This document shows, piece by piece, positions 35,720 to 49,106 of a stretch of 64,000 nt of DNA. Every line of letters begins with the position of its first letter. Within the stretch, counting starts at the first letter, position 1. The notes under the pieces were generated by a model, which did not search any database, was not told the origin of the DNA, and saw only the letters and a program-made list of their open reading frames with translations. The position numbers and the translations under genes are program-made. This DNA comes from Deltaproteobacteria bacterium (GTDB taxonomy: Bacteria > Desulfobacterota > Desulfarculia > Adiutricales > Adiutricaceae): NCBI GenBank assembly GCA_031264145.1, contig JAISEK010000127.1, positions 37,516 to 101,515 of the forward strand, in the 5' to 3' direction.

Positions 35720-36640
35720 TTATCTGTCCCTGGCCGGGAGCGTCAAGGCGTCCGGCGGCAGGTCCGGGGAAAGGTTACCCCGGATCAGGAAGTTGCGCTT
35801 GACCGAGTCCAGAACCTGGTTGACGTCCCTGAGCCCTTCCCTGGCCCCCCTGGCCACCTCGGGGAAGGAGCTGGTGCCTGACTCGACCTGGCTGAGGATT
35901 CTGTCGATCTTGGCGGTCATGCTGGGCAGATCCCGGCCAAGGATGGCGGCCGAGGAGTTGAGGCTCTCGCTGACGCCCCTCAGTTCCTTAAGGAGGGCCA
36001 GAATCTCGTTGTAGGCGTCGTCGGTGGTGAAGAGCTGGCCCACCAGGCCCTCGCCGGAGGCCACCTGGCCGGTTATGCGCTGGAGGTTGCCCATGGTCCC
36101 CAGGATTGGCCCCTGGGAGTCCTGGAGCTGGAAGGTGAGGCTGGTCAGGTTGGCCATGATCTCCTCGAACTGCTCCAGCTTGTCCCGCAACTGCAGAGTG
36201 GCCAGGACGTCGTCCACGGTGGTCGGGTCCTCGGCCGGGATCTGGCCGTTCCTCGGGATGGGCAGGCTGGCCTTGCTGCCAGGGGTGATCTCGATGTACT
36301 CCTTCCCGATGAGGGTCGGGCTCTTGATGTTGGCCTGGCTGTCGCCCTTGATCCTCTCGGCGTACTCGCTCTGGATGATGAGGCGCATGATGACGTTGTT
36401 GGTCTTGGTGATCTCCAGGCTTTTGACCCGCCCGACGTCGATTTGGAGGAACCGTACCTTGACCCCGGGCAGGATGCCGTAGCCTTCATGGTAGAGGACG
36501 AAGTAGTCCGTGTAGCTTTGGAACCAGTCCCGCCCAACGCCGACTATGACCATGACCGTCAAGAGGAAGCCAAAGCAGCAGAACAGGATGAGCCCGGCTA
36601 TTTTCTCAGCCGTTGAGTATGGAAGTTTCATCGTTTCCAC
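35720..36640 (-). CDS. MCE/MlaD-family substrate-binding protein
   Basis: N-terminal TM, then EGYGILPGVKVRFLQIDVGRVKSLEI, SPTLIGKEYIEITPGS; coiled C-terminal region. Confidence 0.87.
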   Translation of the reverse strand: METMKLPYSTAEKIAGLILFCCFGFLLTVMVIVGVGRDWFQSYTDYFVLYHEGYGILPGVKVRFLQIDVGRVKSLEITKTNNVIMRLIIQSEYAERIKGDSQANIKSPTLIGKEYIEITPGSKASLPIPRNGQIPAEDPTTVDDVLATLQLRDKLEQFEEIMANLTSLTFQLQDSQGPILGTMGNLQRITGQVASGEGLVGQLFTTDDAYNEILALLKELRGVSESLNSSAAILGRDLPSMTAKIDRILSQVESGTSSFPEVARGAREGLRDVNQVLDSVKRNFLIRGNLSPDLPPDALTLPARDR

Positions 36641-37325
36641 GCCATGATTTTGAGGGGATGGCCTCCAGGCTGAGGATGCGGTCGAACTGCCCCTCAGGGT
36701 AGCCGGCGGCCAGGCGTCCTAGGACCAGGACGGCCCCTACGGAGGCGGCCTTCTCCTTCATGGCGCCGAGGACGCGGCCCAGGAGCCCTGGGCCCAGGAG
36801 GTCCAGGGGCCTCTCAAGGACGAAAAGGGTGGGCCGGCGGGAAATGGCCAGGGCGGCCTGGGCGGCGTAGCTGTCCGGCCCCGACAGGCCCGCCGGATCC
36901 AGGCTGGCCAGGGCGGTAAGGCCCAGGGCCTCCAGGCAGCCCATGGCCAGCCTCCCGGCCTGACCGGGGAAGGCGCCCTGGTTGTATTCCAGGTCCAGGC
37001 ACATGCTCTGGAAGAGCGTCGCGTTTGGGAGGAGCCCGCTACTGGGACCGACCAGGGCCAGCCGGCGGGCAAACCGCAGCCGTCCCTGGAAATCGCACTC
37101 GTCGGGAAGTCCCCGGCCCTGCCAGAGGAGTTCCCCCTGGGGCTCGGCCTGTCCAGCGGCAAGGAGGGCCAGGGCGGCCAGGATCTCCTGATCGGGGTGG
37201 AGGGCCAGCAGGGCCTGGCCGGGCCAGACGGCCAGGTCGGGGAGGGGGATGGCCGGACGGCCTGCCTGGCCGAGAAGGAGGCCCCGCCAGGAAAAGACCG
37301 ATGCCCCAGGGCCGCCGTCAGCCAT
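36606..37325 (-). CDS. Degenerate MlaF-like ABC ATPase homologue
   Basis: Position between mlaD- and mlaE-like genes; ABC-like layout (FARRLALVGPSSGLLPNATLFQSMCLDLEY..., LSGPDSYAAQAALAISRRPTLFVLERPLDLLGPG) but no intact Walker A/B. Confidence 0.7.
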   Translation of the reverse strand: MADGGPGASVFSWRGLLLGQAGRPAIPLPDLAVWPGQALLALHPDQEILAALALLAAGQAEPQGELLWQGRGLPDECDFQGRLRFARRLALVGPSSGLLPNATLFQSMCLDLEYNQGAFPGQAGRLAMGCLEALGLTALASLDPAGLSGPDSYAAQAALAISRRPTLFVLERPLDLLGPGLLGRVLGAMKEKAASVGAVLVLGRLAAGYPEGQFDRILSLEAIPSKSWRGNDETSILNG

Positions 37326-38211
37326 AGAAGACCGTCACCAGGACGCCGGCCAGCGTGGCGTAGAAGAAGGCCTCGGTCATGGCCCTCCTGGTCAGGCCCG
37401 TCAACCGCCGGAAGGCCCCGACGGGGATCTGGAAGGCGTTGTAGAGGCAGAAGAAGCCCAGGGCCGAGCTTATCAGGAGGATCTTCACCAGGAGCATGAA
37501 CATCATGTAGGGCTCCATGGCCAGGAAAAGGTCCGAGGCGTACTCGACCAGCGGCAGGTCGATGGCCTGGGTTATGCCCCAGAAGGCCCCCAGCATGGAG
37601 GCCAGGTTGATTATGAGCATGAGGCCGGGGAAGGCCAGGATCAGGGCGATGATGCGGGGAAAGGCCAGGACATGCTCCGGGGGGATGCCCATGAGCACCA
37701 GGGGCCTGAACTCGCCCGAGCATTTCGACAGCGACACCTCAAGGGCCATGGGCCCGCCGTAGGTCATGATTAGGGCCATGGTCGCCAGGATGGGGGTGAT
37801 TTCCTGGAGGTGGACGGTTATGAGGAGCCCGGAGAGCATCGTCGGGCCAGGCACGTTCTCCAGGACACCGAACCAGATGACCGTCCACAGGACGCCCATC
37901 ATCAGGCCGAAGATGGACAGGAGCAGGAACGACCTCCAGAATATCTCCAGCACCTGGGCCAGCATGAGGCGGCGGACCATCCTCCTCCGGGAGGCGGGGC
38001 CTAGCAATCCCCCTGCGGCCAGAAAGACAAGGCGGCCGGCGAAGGCGGCCTGGTCCTGGCGTCGCCTGACCCACTGCCCGGAAAAACGGCCCAGGCCCCC
38101 CAGAAGGGCCCAAGGCCGCGACTCGCGTCCCGGGCCCCCTCCACGGGGAAGGCCGTCCTGCCCGCCGGCCCGCGGATCAGAGCGGGATCTCGATATCGCG
38201 CTGGCCGGCAC
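37318..38211 (-). CDS. MlaE-family permease (true start probably internal)
   Basis: FRSFLLLSIFGLMMGVLWTVIWFGVLENV...ALIMTYGGPMALEVSLSKCSGEFRPLVLMGIPPEHVLAFPRIIALILAFPGLMLI. Confidence 0.85.
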   Translation of the reverse strand: MPASAISRSRSDPRAGGQDGLPRGGGPGRESRPWALLGGLGRFSGQWVRRRQDQAAFAGRLVFLAAGGLLGPASRRRMVRRLMLAQVLEIFWRSFLLLSIFGLMMGVLWTVIWFGVLENVPGPTMLSGLLITVHLQEITPILATMALIMTYGGPMALEVSLSKCSGEFRPLVLMGIPPEHVLAFPRIIALILAFPGLMLIINLASMLGAFWGITQAIDLPLVEYASDLFLAMEPYMMFMLLVKILLISSALGFFCLYNAFQIPVGAFRRLTGLTRRAMTEAFFYATLAGVLVTVFYG

Positions 38212-40814: not shown

Positions 40815-40904
40815 CCACCGGCTTCAGCCGGTGGTAAGGAATGACACTCTTTTGAGCGGTATTAGTAGCTTATATATTTTGAAGCCACCAGCTTTAGCTG
40901 GCGG
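40815..40904. repeat. Pair of IS200/IS605-end-like or REP-like hairpins
   Basis: CCACCGGCTTCAGCCGGTGG (40815-40834) and CCACCAGCTTTAGCTGGCGG (40885-40904). Confidence 0.65.
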
Positions 40905-42822
40905 TCGTGCGCTCAAGTAAAAAATGGTGTTTAAAGTTAATATTTTCGGTTTTTCCTTCTTTAATAAAGCAGCAAGCGGCAACATTTCTCAAATCCTGGG
41001 CCACTGCCAAGGACACGAGGATTGGGTTTTTATACGGTTTGGCGTAGCCGATATCCATAATCTGTTTTATTCCATTTTTGGCAGCTGCCTCGGCAAGCGA
41101 AGCCTTCTCGACTACCTTGGTCTCGATAACGTAGATTTTTTCCTTGTGGTCCACGACCAGATCGCAGCGGCCCTTGCTGGAGTGGATCTCGGAGTAGGCT
41201 TTCAGGCCAGCCCCCAAAAGAAAGGAGTGGAGAATCGCCCGATAGAAGCTCTCGCTAAGCTTTAAAATTATTTCGTTCGCCAGGCCGCTCTTTTCTATAA
41301 GCGAATTCATGATTGAATATGCTTCCTCAAATTTATTTTTGTCGAATGCCTCCGACATTTTGTAAATTTCCTTTACTATGGCGGCTTTTCCCCATGCGGG
41401 TTCCATAAGGCGCTTGACCTCTGCCTGCTTGTCCCTGGGAATGGCCATGTACATGGAAAGGCACTTGGCCGCCGCATGATCGTCATAGGCGATTGTGGAG
41501 TAGAGAACCACTATGTCATCCACTATGGCCGGAATATCTCCGTCTTTGACGTGCTGTTCCAGCTCGATTGCGGCTTTGCCCGCCTCGACGATGGATGGGA
41601 ATAAATTATCCATGTACAGTCGCGACATGGATGACAAGACTTCAAAGTTGGGGTAGTCCAGCCTGAAGGAAGACTCGGCGTCTTTGCGAAGCGTGAGATA
41701 GCCTGCCTGGTAAAGGAATCCTTCTGGCGGGACAGCGTCAATTTCCCCTGGGAAACGGATAAAATCCATGTTCACCTGGCAATTCTCAAACTGCTGCGCA
41801 GTGAGCCCTTTGTCTTTCAGCATTTTTCGGATCAGCGTGTTGGATCCGGATTCCATCCAGTAATTATTGAATTTCATATTGACAAAGAAATTCATCGTGG
41901 AGAAAGGGTTGTAGAGCTTGGTTTCCCCGTCAAATGAAAAACCATCATAGTAAGCCTTAATCTTATCCAACAGCTCTGTTTCTTTAAGGCAAAGCCTGTC
42001 AGCCGTCCTCTTGATGAAAGGCTTGAAATTTAGTTCCAGTTCCTCATGGGTGAAGCCAATAAAGGAGGCAAACTCAGGTAAGAGGGAAATATCAGTTAGA
42101 TTATTCAGGGTAGAAAAAACGCCCATGCGGGAAAATTTTGTGACACCGGTTATAAAAACGAAGTCTAGATACTCATCGGCAGATTTGACCTTGCTGTAAA
42201 AATTAGACATAATTGAGCGAGTATCTTCAATTAAATTTTTGATTTTAGATAATACTGGATCCTGTATAGTTTTTATGACCGGCGCATCGTACTCATCTAT
42301 CAAAAGGACGACCTTTTGGGAATAACTTGCTTGTATATCCTCTATCAGGCTTAAAAAAATATCAGCGGAATCGCCTTCCTGTAAAGAAACATTGTGGCGC
42401 TTGGCACTCTTTTTAAGTTCTTTAATTATTTTTGCTTCTAGCTTTTCTTTGCTTACTGCCCAACTGGGGGCGCTCATGTCCAGGCGAATGACAGGCTTTG
42501 AGGCGAAGCCAGGAGAATTCATGTATTCCTGGATGGCCAACCCCTCAAAAAGTTTTTTTTCGCCCGAGTAGAAGGAATCCAGGGTGGAGACGGTCAGCGA
42601 TTTTCCAAAACGCCTGGGTCTGGAGAGGAAGATGACCTCGCCATATTTCTTTAGTTCAGGGAGATACTGGGTCTTATCCACATATGCTTTCCCATCGTCT
42701 CTGATTTTTTTGAAAATGCTCGTGCCTACAGGCAAAAGAGGAAGATCATTTTCCACCGAAGCCTCCTCTGGGCTGAGGCAAATCATGAACGGCTCAGCCA
42801 GAAAAAGTAGTATTAAGTTCAA
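40894..42822 (-). CDS. AAA-ATPase-like / PD-(D/E)XK nuclease superfamily protein (DUF1703 type), divergent
   Basis: YVDKTQYLPELKKYGEVIFLSRPRRFGKSLTVSTLDSFYSGEKKLFEGL, VVLLIDEYDAPVI, GRCDLVVDHKEKIYVIETKVV; start may be about 42786. Confidence 0.92.
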   Translation of the reverse strand: MNLILLFLAEPFMICLSPEEASVENDLPLLPVGTSIFKKIRDDGKAYVDKTQYLPELKKYGEVIFLSRPRRFGKSLTVSTLDSFYSGEKKLFEGLAIQEYMNSPGFASKPVIRLDMSAPSWAVSKEKLEAKIIKELKKSAKRHNVSLQEGDSADIFLSLIEDIQASYSQKVVLLIDEYDAPVIKTIQDPVLSKIKNLIEDTRSIMSNFYSKVKSADEYLDFVFITGVTKFSRMGVFSTLNNLTDISLLPEFASFIGFTHEELELNFKPFIKRTADRLCLKETELLDKIKAYYDGFSFDGETKLYNPFSTMNFFVNMKFNNYWMESGSNTLIRKMLKDKGLTAQQFENCQVNMDFIRFPGEIDAVPPEGFLYQAGYLTLRKDAESSFRLDYPNFEVLSSMSRLYMDNLFPSIVEAGKAAIELEQHVKDGDIPAIVDDIVVLYSTIAYDDHAAAKCLSMYMAIPRDKQAEVKRLMEPAWGKAAIVKEIYKMSEAFDKNKFEEAYSIMNSLIEKSGLANEIILKLSESFYRAILHSFLLGAGLKAYSEIHSSKGRCDLVVDHKEKIYVIETKVVEKASLAEAAAKNGIKQIMDIGYAKPYKNPILVSLAVAQDLRNVAACCFIKEGKTENINFKHHFLLERTTAS

Positions 42823-43300: not shown

Positions 43301-43434
43301 CAATGTCAACAACTTAAAGCTATTATAGCCCACAGCACGCAATTCCCATGTCTCGGTTCCCTGCTTAACATCTTGAATTGACAGGAATTTTGAAAATGCC
43401 TGAAGTCAGCGGATCTCTTAAGTTGTTGACATTG
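43301..43434. mobile_element. 134-bp MITE-like element with perfect 17-bp TIRs and 10-bp flanking direct repeats
   Basis: CAATGTCAACAACTTAA / TTAAGTTGTTGACATTG; ACCCCCTTGG at 43291-43300 and 43435-43444. Confidence 0.8.
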
Positions 43435-44407: not shown

Positions 44408-45886
44408 ATGACTGGAGAAAAAGGCCGCGGGGTGCCTTGGCCCTCGCGGGCTGCCTGGCTGGGAGGCCTTTGGGCCTTGTCCCTTTCCTGCGCCTCGGTT
44501 TTCCTAGCCGGTCCCCTGGCCTGGGCCCTGGAAGGTGATCAGGGTGGGCCGGGCCAGCCTGGCCGGCTGTCCCTTTGGTGGGCGGCCCTGGACCCCCTCG
44601 GGCGGTCCTGTCTCGTCGCCGGGGCCATCATGGTCCTCGTCCTGGCGGTGGCCCTGGTCTCGGCCCTGGTCTTCCGCGGGCGGGCCCAGGCCCTGGGGAG
44701 GGCGGGGGCGGACGCGCCGGTGGCCAGGGCGGGATCGCCGGGGGGCGGCCTGGGCGGCGTCCCAGACCCGCCCAGGGGGATTTTCCCAAGCCAGTGGCTG
44801 GCCGGCGCGGACGAGGGGAAACTGGGGCCGCTTCTGGCCAAGGCCAGGGACGAGGCGGCCAGGGCCTTCTTTGACGGCCTGGGCCCCCTGGACGATGGGG
44901 CCGGGCGTCCGCCCGATCCGGGGGCGATCGAGGCGGCCGCGGGCAAGATGGCCTTCTCCCTAAGACAGTCCCTGGCCTCCCCAGGGGTCCTGGGGGCCCT
45001 CTCAGGGGGAGGCGGGCTCGGGCGTAAGGAGACGGCCCTCCTGATCCTCCATCTGGGCCGGCTCCTGCCCCCGGTCAAGGCGCCCCGGCCGGAGGCCCAG
45101 CCAGGGGAGATAAGGCCCCTGGCCGTGGCCCTGGTGGCCCTGGCCGGGTCAGCGGTCTGCTCGCTGGCCGGCGGGACGGTGAGATTCCTGGGCCTGCCCG
45201 CGGAGACCGGCCATTTCGTCGGCTCGGCCCTGGGGGCTGGCCTGGGGGCCCTGGTGGCCATGTTTTTGTCCCAAAACGAGCGCTGCCGCCGCTGGCTCAT
45301 GGCCGCCGTGGGTGGGCTGGCCTTCCTGGACGCCTTGTCCGCCATCGTCGGGGGGGCCCTTTTGCCTGGCTTCCTTTCCTCTGGCCGGGGGTCGCTGGCC
45401 AAGCGGCTTCTATTCTACCTTGGGGCCATGCTGGTCCTGGCCCTGGTCAAGGGCGGGAAGGGCTTCGACCGGGAGCGCCTGCGGAGGGACGTCGAGGAAC
45501 GGGCCGGCGACTATCTGAGGGACAGCCTCCCCCTCTTGGCCGTCCTGATGTTTCGTGTCGGCGGCGAGGGCCAGGGGCCGGCCCTCGGGACCCAGCCTGG
45601 GGAGGCCCTGGCCGCTGACGTGGCCGCGCTGGTCCGCCGCCTGAGGGGCCGCGGGTGGGCCGGGGACGATCCGGTCATGGACGAGCTGGCCCGGAGGCTG
45701 GCCAGGGACGGCTACGACACGGAGCCCCGGGCCGGCGTCCGGCGGAGGCTGGCCTGGGAGGATGGCCTGGGAAACCTTTACGAGACCTTTGGCCTGATTG
45801 GTAAGGACCAGATGGTCGTCATAGAGGAGGAACCTGTCCTGAGGGAAGGCAAGGTGGTCCAGAAGGGCCTGGCCGTGCCGGAATAG
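44408..45886 (+). CDS. Membrane protein with GrpE-like C-terminal domain
   Basis: Several TM segments; C-terminus LGNLYETFGLIGKDQMVVIEEEPVLREGKVVQKGLAVPE; directly upstream of the Hsp70-like gene. Confidence 0.6.
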   Translation: MTGEKGRGVPWPSRAAWLGGLWALSLSCASVFLAGPLAWALEGDQGGPGQPGRLSLWWAALDPLGRSCLVAGAIMVLVLAVALVSALVFRGRAQALGRAGADAPVARAGSPGGGLGGVPDPPRGIFPSQWLAGADEGKLGPLLAKARDEAARAFFDGLGPLDDGAGRPPDPGAIEAAAGKMAFSLRQSLASPGVLGALSGGGGLGRKETALLILHLGRLLPPVKAPRPEAQPGEIRPLAVALVALAGSAVCSLAGGTVRFLGLPAETGHFVGSALGAGLGALVAMFLSQNERCRRWLMAAVGGLAFLDALSAIVGGALLPGFLSSGRGSLAKRLLFYLGAMLVLALVKGGKGFDRERLRRDVEERAGDYLRDSLPLLAVLMFRVGGEGQGPALGTQPGEALAADVAALVRRLRGRGWAGDDPVMDELARRLARDGYDTEPRAGVRRRLAWEDGLGNLYETFGLIGKDQMVVIEEEPVLREGKVVQKGLAVPE

Positions 45887-45920
45887 GGCAATCGCGGCCA
45901 GGGCCCGCCGGCCCGGGGCC

Positions 45921-47942
45921 ATGGGAATGACGCTTCAGGGGGCGGGCATGGCAGGCAAGACCAGGGCAAACGTGATAGGCATCGACTTCGGGACCAGCAA
46001 CACCTATCTGACCATTTGCCCCTATGGGACGAAAAACAAGTTTCCACTCCACATCGGTGGCCGCTCCCCGGCCATAGACACGGCCATCCTGTATGCGGAC
46101 GATCCTGGCCCCGACCCGGGCCTCTTCCCCCTGGTTGGCGAGCGGGCCACGGCCACCTTCGGCCAGGCCGACCTGGAGACCAGGGCCCGCAGGGGTTACC
46201 GCTACCACGCCAACTTCAAGCCGGAGATCGTCGGGCACGAGGTGGCCAGGAAGTGCGCGGCCGATTTCCTCGGGGCCATAAGGCGCGAGGCCCAGATTGT
46301 CGGCGTCGGGCTGGACCAAGGGGAGGGCTCGGTCATAATTGGCGCCCCCAGCGAGGCGGGCCCCGCATTCAGGGAGACGCTCAGGGCCGTGGTGGGCGAG
46401 GCCGGCCTGGGGGCGGCGGAGGTGGTCGACGAGCCCAAGGGGGTCCTCCTGACGGATCTGGGTTACAACCGCTTCCCGCTGGGCGACATCCTAGATGGCT
46501 ACCTGGTGGTGGACTTTGGCGGCGGGACCTGCGACTTCGCCCTTATGAGCCGCGGCGAGGTCGTGGCCAGCTGGGGCGACATGGAGCTGGGCGGCCGGCT
46601 TTTCGACGACCTCTTCTTCCAGTGGTTCCTGGAGCAGAATCCAGGGGCGGAGGAGGCCCTGGCCAGGGAGCGCCGCGAGTTCTATGTCTGGTCCTACTGC
46701 TGCCGGCGCCTCAAGGAGGATTTCTCCGAGACCGTGGCCAGGGACAGAAGGGGCCGGGTGACGGCCGAGGTCGGGCGCTTCGGCGTGGTCAGGGAACTGG
46801 ACCTGGAGACGTTCCTGGCCAGGGCCTCCGCCTACACCCCCTCCGAGGCCTTCGCCAGTTTCGGCCGGACCATGGGGGTCCGGCTGTCCCCGCGCCTTCT
46901 TGGGGGCGGGATTGATCTCATCGCCTGGTTCAGGGACCTGCTCCTGGGCGGCCTGGGGGCTTCCCGGGTCAGGGCGGTCTCGCTCTCCGGGGGGAGCTCC
47001 AGGTGGTTCTTCGTCATGGACCTGTGCCTTTCCGCCCTTGGGCTGCGGCCGGGGAGGATCCTGGGCAGCCCCAATCCCTTCGGGGCCATCTCCGAGGGCC
47101 TGGCGATCCTTCCGGCGGTCAAGATGGAGCTGGAGGCGGCGAAGGAAAAAATGTTGGCCGACAAGGAGGGCTTCATCGTTTCCGAGCTGATGCCCCTGGT
47201 CGAGGAAAACCTGGGAGGTTCCGCCGAGTGCCTGGCCGGCCGGATAACGGCCGAGCTCTTTGACGGCCAGATCGTGCCCCTGTTAAGGCGGGCTGGCGAC
47301 GAGGGCCTAAGGATAGCCGACGTCGAGGCCGGCATCCAGGGATGCGTGGACCAATACCGGGAGCGGCTGGAGGAACTGGCCGACGAGGAGATAGGCTCGG
47401 GCATCCTGGCAACCAGGACCATCCTCCAGGACAAGGTGCAGGCCTGGCTTGACTCCTATGGCCTCAGGCTCGAGGGGAGGCTGCCAGCGGGCGCCGGGCC
47501 GTCCGGCCTGGTCGAGATTGGGCGGCCCACGATCGGCGACCAGCTGTCCAGGCCCCTGGTCACGGTCTCCGCCGGCCTGGTGGCCACCTGGACTGGCCTC
47601 ATCCTCGCCTCCCTGTGCGGGGGCGGCGGGGTGGCCCTGCTGGCCGCCGGGCCCCTTGGTCTCGTCCTGGGGGGGCTGGGCGGATTTGGCCTTGGCCATC
47701 TCGGCTTGAGGCCATGGCGGGGGCGGATCGAGCGGATGGCCAAGGACGTCAGGTTGCCGGCCGCAATAGCCAGGGCCATCGTCTCCGAGAAGAACGTCCG
47801 GAGAGCCAGGGAGGGGTTCAGGAGCGATCTCGTCGCCAAGGTCAACGAAGCCTACGGGGGCATCTCTGGGAAGCTCCCGGCCGAGCTTGACGCCGTGATC
47901 GCGGGGGAGATCAACCAGTTGGGCATAATCAATGTGTTCTAG
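45921..47942 (+). CDS. Hsp70-family ATPase with C-terminal hydrophobic hairpin and helical tail
   Basis: VIGIDFGTSNTYLTI, YLVVDFGGGTCDFALMSRG, VSLSGGSSRWFFVMDL, NPFGAISEGLAI; hydrophobic GLVATWTGLILASLCGGGGVALLAAGPLGLVLGGLGGFGLG. Confidence 0.88.
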   Translation: MGMTLQGAGMAGKTRANVIGIDFGTSNTYLTICPYGTKNKFPLHIGGRSPAIDTAILYADDPGPDPGLFPLVGERATATFGQADLETRARRGYRYHANFKPEIVGHEVARKCAADFLGAIRREAQIVGVGLDQGEGSVIIGAPSEAGPAFRETLRAVVGEAGLGAAEVVDEPKGVLLTDLGYNRFPLGDILDGYLVVDFGGGTCDFALMSRGEVVASWGDMELGGRLFDDLFFQWFLEQNPGAEEALARERREFYVWSYCCRRLKEDFSETVARDRRGRVTAEVGRFGVVRELDLETFLARASAYTPSEAFASFGRTMGVRLSPRLLGGGIDLIAWFRDLLLGGLGASRVRAVSLSGGSSRWFFVMDLCLSALGLRPGRILGSPNPFGAISEGLAILPAVKMELEAAKEKMLADKEGFIVSELMPLVEENLGGSAECLAGRITAELFDGQIVPLLRRAGDEGLRIADVEAGIQGCVDQYRERLEELADEEIGSGILATRTILQDKVQAWLDSYGLRLEGRLPAGAGPSGLVEIGRPTIGDQLSRPLVTVSAGLVATWTGLILASLCGGGGVALLAAGPLGLVLGGLGGFGLGHLGLRPWRGRIERMAKDVRLPAAIARAIVSEKNVRRAREGFRSDLVAKVNEAYGGISGKLPAELDAVIAGEINQLGIINVF

Positions 47943-48886: not shown

Positions 48887-49002
48887 AACTGGCTGCGGCT
48901 AAGTTCTTGCACCCATGACCCGAATGGGTTGCCAAATTTGTCAGCAATAGGTACTGCGTTTGCAGCGTGACTTGGCCTATATTTTGGGTATTGGGTATAT
49001 AA

Positions 49003-49052
49003 GGAAAGCCGGCGACCGAGGCCCTGTGGGGGGCTTCGGCCGCCGGCTTTCC
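49003..49052 (-). terminator. Strong hairpin downstream of the RRM gene
   Basis: GGAAAGCCGGCG ... CGCCGGCTTTCC. Confidence 0.6.
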
Positions 49053-49106
49053 TGGAATTATGGGGCTATCTCGCCTTGGGGTCCGGCTGGACGGTGTTCA
49101 GTTCCG

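Follow-up and report, generated by a model that had tools for sequence, protein, structure and literature searches.

An Hsp70-fold ATPase with a stalk and hydrophobic hairpin in place of the substrate-binding domain, and its obligately paired membrane partner in scattered bacteria

INTRODUCTION

Hsp70 proteins are usually viewed as motors that work through a client-binding domain. What an Hsp70-type ATPase might do where that domain is missing is the question raised by two adjacent genes, P0001 and P0002, in a 64,000-nucleotide (nt) stretch of DNA from Deltaproteobacteria bacterium, a member of the Adiutricaceae (assembly GCA_031264145.1, contig JAISEK010000127.1, positions 37,516 to 101,515, forward strand). 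We refer to this whole stretch as the window and count coordinates from its first nucleotide. An original prediction, made from the sequence alone, had described the pair as a membrane-tethered ATPase with a cis-encoded partner acting in nucleotide exchange. Both predicted open reading frames (ORFs) were confirmed on the + strand, and the gap between them, given earlier as 35 nt, measures 34 nt.

44408..45886, +, partner gene P0001, encoding a 492-amino-acid (aa) multi-transmembrane protein (ORF list; position upstream of the ATPase gene)
45921..47942, +, ATPase gene P0002, encoding a 673-aa Hsp70-fold protein with a membrane hairpin (ORF, Pfam, AlphaFold2, Foldseek)

Conservation and model confidence indicate that P0002 may start at an internal ATG, at residue 10 (45948). 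We lean, by a little, toward the reading that each gene encodes one obligate subunit of a machine in the inner membrane, with an Hsp70-type ATP cycle driving its stalk and hairpin.

RESULTS

Nucleotide-binding domain of P0002

The AlphaFold2 model of P0002 (predicted local distance difference test [pLDDT] score, 83.5; predicted template modeling [pTM] score, 0.75) begins with an Hsp70-type nucleotide-binding domain (NBD). When this model was compared with the PDB using Foldseek, DnaK and other Hsp70s came out on top (best E value, 8.4e-15), with template modeling scores, normalized by target length, of 0.65 to 0.73 against isolated NBDs. All 50 listed matches were Hsp70s, and the matches cover the Hsp70 NBD. 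The top PDB sequence match was likewise DnaK (E value, 1.4e-7; residues 14 to 243).

45960..47084, +, Hsp70-type NBD, residues 14 to 388 (AlphaFold2; Foldseek to DnaK)
45984..46001, +, phosphate-1 motif DFGTSN, residues 22 to 27 (D22, G24, and T25 invariant in 40 relatives)
46218..46220, +, Lys100 in an FK motif, invariant (alignment of 40 relatives)
46512..46535, +, phosphate-2 motif DFGGGTCD, residues 198 to 205 (D198, G200 to G202, T203, and D205 invariant)
46989..47000, +, adenosine motif GGSS, residues 357 to 360 (alignment of 40 relatives)

The three motifs on which the Hsp70/actin-fold assignment had originally been based, DFGTSNTYLTI (from residue 22), DFGGGTCDFALM (from residue 198), and SGGSSRWFF (from residue 356), are all present. 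Across the 40 aligned relatives, which span at least seven phyla, the invariant residues are D22, G24, T25, K100, E171, D198, GGGT at 200 to 203, D205, and GG at 357 to 358, such that the Hsp70 catalytic set (D-x-G-T, the Lys70 and Glu171 equivalents, D-x-G-G-G-T, and GGS) is invariant or nearly so. In DnaK, Lys70 stabilizes the transition state of hydrolysis (PMC8215388). Lys100 is the probable equivalent of this catalytic lysine, and E171 would correspond to the catalytic glutamate of Hsp70; both assignments were made by position rather than by superposition. Because the invariant residues match the phosphate, lysine, glutamate, and adenosine motifs of Hsp70 by position, P0002 should be an ATP-hydrolyzing Hsp70-fold protein. 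In PHROGs, the sole match was a weak one between the Hsp70 core of P0002 and a family of unknown function.

The same superfamily fold is shared by MreB, FtsA, and MamK, and P0002 could instead form a hairpin-anchored, actin-like cytoskeletal filament at the membrane. Pfam MreB_Mbl matches 40/40 family members (best E value, 2.1e-10), and some members have weak matches to further actin-like families, ParM and FtsA among them. However, all 40 members match Pfam HSP70 as well (best E value, 1.8e-15), and in P0002 itself HSP70 (PF00012) outscores MreB, with 24 bits over residues 195 to 270 (cutoff, 20.6) compared to 22.5 bits, which falls under the MreB cutoff. Hsp70 thus ranks over MreB in the Pfam, PDB, and fold searches alike, with the best structure and PDB sequence matches being to Hsp70/DnaK rather than to actins.

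A tree of the ATPase domain places the P0002 family on a deep branch of its own, apart from DnaK, other Hsp70s, and MreB (support, 100/100; length, 2.37) and outside the DnaK/HscA-type clade; this placement is subject to long-branch caveats, and the tree included no HscC reference by name. One long-branch Hsp70-like spirochete protein fell beside the family, possibly by attraction. Given the better match to Hsp70, the separate branch, and a stalk and hairpin that set P0002 apart from MreB, FtsA, and MamK, we regard the actin-like reading as rather improbable.

Stalk, hairpin, and tail in place of the substrate-binding domain

After residue 388, fold, Pfam, and PDB searches returned no match to the DnaK interdomain linker or its beta-sandwich substrate-binding domain (SBD). 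Instead, the NBD leads directly into two long stalk helices of 73 and 48 residues, followed by a Gly-rich hydrophobic hairpin and a tail whose main helix, of 43 residues, returns. The model thus contains the helical region, Gly-rich hairpin, and helical tail that had been predicted for an Hsp70/actin-fold protein lacking the DnaK SBD.

47085..47456, +, two very long helices, residues 389 to 461 and 465 to 512, replacing the linker and SBD (AlphaFold2)
47532..47690, +, Gly-rich hydrophobic hairpin, residues about 538 to 590 (alignment and hydropathy; AlphaFold2 pLDDT low, below 50 at residues 567 to 597)
47709..47936, +, C-terminal helical tail, residues 597 to 672, main helix 623 to 665 (AlphaFold2)

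For the C-terminal 285 aa, Pfam and PDB offered nothing convincing. The stalk region showed a weak profile similarity to the amphipathic helices of apolipoprotein A-I (E value, 2.6e-4), which probably reflects a generic likeness among amphipathic helices.

Bacterial dynamin-like proteins combine a nucleotide-binding head, a long helical stalk, and a hydrophobic hairpin. P0002 shares this arrangement, and the pair could accordingly be pictured as a dynamin-like membrane-remodeling machine in which an ATP-driven Hsp70/actin-type head replaces the GTPase and a two-helix stalk carries a hydrophobic paddle and a returning helix. The order and lengths of the predicted elements fit this picture, and the apolipoprotein similarity would fit it too, unless it stems from generic helix composition. 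The likeness is an architectural analogy, however: P0002 has no dynamin GTPase domain, its head being Hsp70-fold by Foldseek; sequence and fold searches gave no link to dynamins, none of which appears among the 50 listed matches; and self-assembly is hypothetical. We consider dynamin-like remodeling unlikely; together with the actin-like filament, it is the main rival of a lever driven by the Hsp70-type ATP cycle.

Architecture of the partner P0001

P0001 has six hydrophobic segments by hydropathy, and its AlphaFold2 model (pLDDT, 81.7; pTM, 0.59) divides into the following parts.

44450..44671, +, two N-terminal hydrophobic helices, residues 15 to 33 and 70 to 88, an extension mostly confined to the window's own family of bacteria (hydropathy, alignment)
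44786..45064, +, N-terminal helical domain, residues 127 to 219 (AlphaFold2, pLDDT mostly above 80)
45116..45274, +, Gly-rich two-helix membrane hairpin, residues 237 to 289, in all members (alignment, AlphaFold2, hydropathy)
45278..45445, +, second hydrophobic pair, residues 291 to 346, missing from many planctomycete members (alignment, AlphaFold2, hydropathy)
45470..45883, +, best-conserved part, residues 355 to 492, three helices and then five short strands (alignment, AlphaFold2)

All members share a core in which one Gly-rich hairpin lies between the helical domain and the C-terminal domain, and as judged from the alignment, the first two hydrophobic helices and the second hydrophobic pair are lineage additions. 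Within residues 355 to 492, the conserved pattern comprises W, Y-E-x-F-G, G-D-x-V-x-V-E-x-x-P-V, and G-x-V-x-x-K-G-x-V, and the last ∼45 residues form a strict motif with the consensus YETFGxVxxGDxVxVExxPVxxxGxVxxKGLVRK. No match to P0001 exceeded the curated cutoff in Pfam or NCBIfam, PADLOC gave none at all, and no PDB match was convincing; matches to FliG, designed helices, and myosin were rejected as generic helix matches.

A profile comparison related the hairpin of the partner to that of P0002, with a score of 20.8, compared to 8.3 ± 2.0 for shuffled and 12.5 for reversed sequences. Only the hairpins exceeded the controls; the similarity between the N-terminal helices of the partner and the P0002 stalk did not. 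This likeness suggests either packing of the two hairpins or a shared membrane module.

Relationship of the partner to GrpE

As a GrpE-like nucleotide-exchange factor tethered to the membrane, the partner would use its C-terminal strands as the GrpE beta-domain that opens the ATPase cleft. The original prediction had drawn this resemblance, and several features agree with it. The predicted order of elements in the C terminus (a long helix, two short helices, and five short strands) is compatible with the helix-then-strand topology of GrpE, an ungapped register can be drawn over the last 32 residues, and obligate pairing would suit a dedicated cofactor.

The resemblance found no profile, register, or fold-search support, however. 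Searches of 95 relatives with PF01025 recovered more than 100 GrpE domains, very divergent ones included, and none of these lay at a partner locus; Pfam GrpE matched 0/41 partner C termini. Against 29 real GrpEs, hhalign gave the partner C terminus a probability of about 1%, compared to 98% for the positive control, in which a true but divergent GrpE domain of a relative was used. Hidden Markov model scores of the beta-part did not prefer GrpE over decoys, and although a longer helical profile scored GrpEs above decoys on average, these scores were subsignificant and lay outside the beta-domain. The register drawn by eye scored 7.2, which is only the third-best diagonal and at chance level (mean of the null maximum, 7.4); for the best diagonal, the P value versus shuffles was still 0.14. 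Foldseek with the whole partner model placed GrpE at rank 38 (E value, 3.6). Moreover, FDP-x-x-HEA and KGY-x-L, conserved in the 29 control GrpEs, are absent from the partner. We therefore do not assign the partner to GrpE, although its C-terminal domain, taken in isolation, may yet resemble GrpE in fold, and the exchange-factor reading is quite unlikely; what stands of the original prediction is a tethered Hsp70-fold ATPase with a dedicated membrane partner.

An ordinary DnaK and GrpE are encoded elsewhere in the host genome. A different gene pair occurs at two loci in relatives (L144, 1511-3292 and 3896-5350; L147, 823-2277 and 3232-5013), where a second Hsp70 (593 aa) lies beside a 484-aa coiled-coil protein that contains a true but divergent GrpE domain.

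Distribution and obligate pairing

Among the genomes sampled from the order, class, and phylum of the window's source, orthologs (42 to 64% identity) occurred solely in its own family, in about 14 genomes. A genome scan found 43 loci at 27 to 49% identity (two of them in the same own-family genomes) from Planctomycetota, Calditrichota, Synergistota, Bacillota (Halobacteroidaceae), Spirochaetota, Myxococcota, and KSB1. The carriers of the pair are thus scattered bacteria from at least seven phyla. They usually hold a single copy and are rare: of 198 genomes in a planctomycete class, 3 carry the pair, including 2 already-known carriers. The source data contain a binning error, as contig 30185 (L049/L050) was assigned to both a Synergistales and a Phycisphaerales metagenome-assembled genome.

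The original prediction had named conservation of the two genes as neighbors in other genomes as a test, and this conservation proved strong. The partner lies directly upstream of the ATPase gene, on the same strand, in 50/50 loci whose upstream sequence is long enough to tell (five further loci are cut by contig ends). A search of 60 relatives with the partner profile gave matches only where the ATPase gene was also present or the partner sat at a contig end, as it does in both partner-only genomes, G001 and G006. Pairwise distances of the two protein families were correlated (r = 0.89, or 0.94 when the own family is left out; permutations reached at most 0.24). These two genes form an obligate module. 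Most gaps outside the own family range from −4 to 11 nt, start/stop overlaps included, which suggests that the genes are translationally coupled there. Three loci of the own family have 0.4 to 2.1 kb between the genes and retain both; in two own-family genomes, at L027 (5473-8006) and L073 (11193-12241), the pair has been pushed apart by 1 to 2 kb and both genes remain.

No protein cluster recurred next to the pair across lineages, no Pfam family was found in more than two members among 79 scanned neighbors, and plasmids, phages, and viral contigs contained no relatives at the sensitivity used. With neither recurrent neighbors nor such relatives, the pair appears to be a self-contained chromosomal module. 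In one rumen spirochete (L058, 2-9941), what appears to be a single operon combines the pair with genes for two additional, very divergent Hsp70-like proteins (738 and 877 aa) and for small unknown proteins.

Genomic context in the window

The GC content of both genes is ∼70%, similar to that of core genes, with AT-rich stretches on both sides; GC drops to 18 to 35% near 40.0 to 40.7 and 42.8 to 43.7 kb. A ∼134-bp element resembling a miniature inverted-repeat transposable element (MITE) lies at about 43301-43434, with inverted ends GTCAACAACTTAA and TTAAGTTGTTGAC. The genome holds nine copies, this one included, and the others are 79 to 99% identical. The upstream DNA is thus AT rich and MITE bearing, as originally described.

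This flank and the patchy distribution could point to a toxin, defense, or mobile-element cargo module, and a defense function had been among the options of the original prediction. However, we found no PADLOC match, no recurrent defense neighbors, and no phage, plasmid, or viral-contig copies, and the pair is usually single copy with non-recurrent neighbors and core-like GC content. We regard this reading as very unlikely.

Directly upstream of the pair, beside the AT-rich tracts, 40894-42822 (−) encodes a protein with AAA-ATPase_like and PD-(D/E)XK_9 domains (PF09820, PF08011). Homologues of the lipid-transport genes MlaD and MlaE lie about 6 to 9 kb upstream (35720-38211, −). A GC-rich, near-perfect inverted repeat (49002-49053; 23 nt with a 6-nt spacer) separates the pair from an RRM protein gene. 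No tRNA or other RNA features were found within the window.

DISCUSSION

How might an Hsp70-type ATPase work without a client-binding domain? As the NBD is joined directly to the stalk, hairpin, and tail, no peptide-binding domain would close when ATP is bound and hydrolyzed; what moves would be a lever embedded in the membrane. We infer that the two proteins form a physical complex. A similar type of hairpin, most likely packed with that of the ATPase, would hold the smaller subunit in the membrane, and this subunit would present its conserved C-terminal domain on the cytosolic side to the ATPase domain, for which this domain is the likely contact. The partner would thereby set the nucleotide cycle or couple it to the membrane, as a fixed membrane subunit and regulator. 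Such a machine would probably assemble membrane proteins or control their quality, or else maintain the membrane itself; a membrane-protein client is a guess, made by analogy with HscC and DjlB/DjlC at the plasma membrane (PMC8215388).

Several points weigh against this reading. Membrane insertion of P0002 is based on hydropathy and includes a low-confidence stretch of the model (residues 567 to 597), and the hairpin similarity may come from Gly-zipper composition. Shared species history is also contained in the distance correlation. Further, no neighboring gene supports a client or physiological role, and a function that is conditional or can be dispensed with would agree with the patchy occurrence.

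Comparison with known systems clarifies what is familiar in the pair. Like DnaK with GrpE and DnaJ, it combines the NBD fold and ATP motifs with a dedicated, cofactor-like gene nearby. Unlike DnaK, P0002 lacks the interdomain linker and SBD and has a membrane hairpin, the partner is not detectably a GrpE, and no J-domain gene recurs beside the pair. HscC with the tail-anchored proteins DjlB and DjlC is a membrane-associated bacterial Hsp70 system (PMC8215388), and it resembles the present pair in having an Hsp70-type ATPase proposed to act at the plasma membrane, dedicated membrane-anchored partners encoded nearby, and a sporadic occurrence. HscC, however, retains its SBD and its partners are J-proteins, whereas here the hairpin belongs to the ATPase itself and no J-domain match was obtained for the partner.

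The motor is thus of a known kind, and the pair looks like an undescribed two-part membrane machine. No description of it was found in the open-licence literature, and we found no family model for the stalk-hairpin part of P0002 or for the partner. More tentatively, and with appreciable doubt, the pair may represent a new class of membrane machine: an Hsp70-type motor, a stalk-and-hairpin lever, and an obligate partner with a related hairpin would act on membranes or membrane proteins without a peptide-binding domain, J-protein, or GrpE. The two genes in any case define an unannotated family pair to look out for in bacterial genomes. If the lever reading is true, a module with the catalytic core retained and the client domain replaced by a membrane lever and a fixed partner would be a second use of the Hsp70 motor, and Hsp70 action inside the membrane would be directly testable with two genes.

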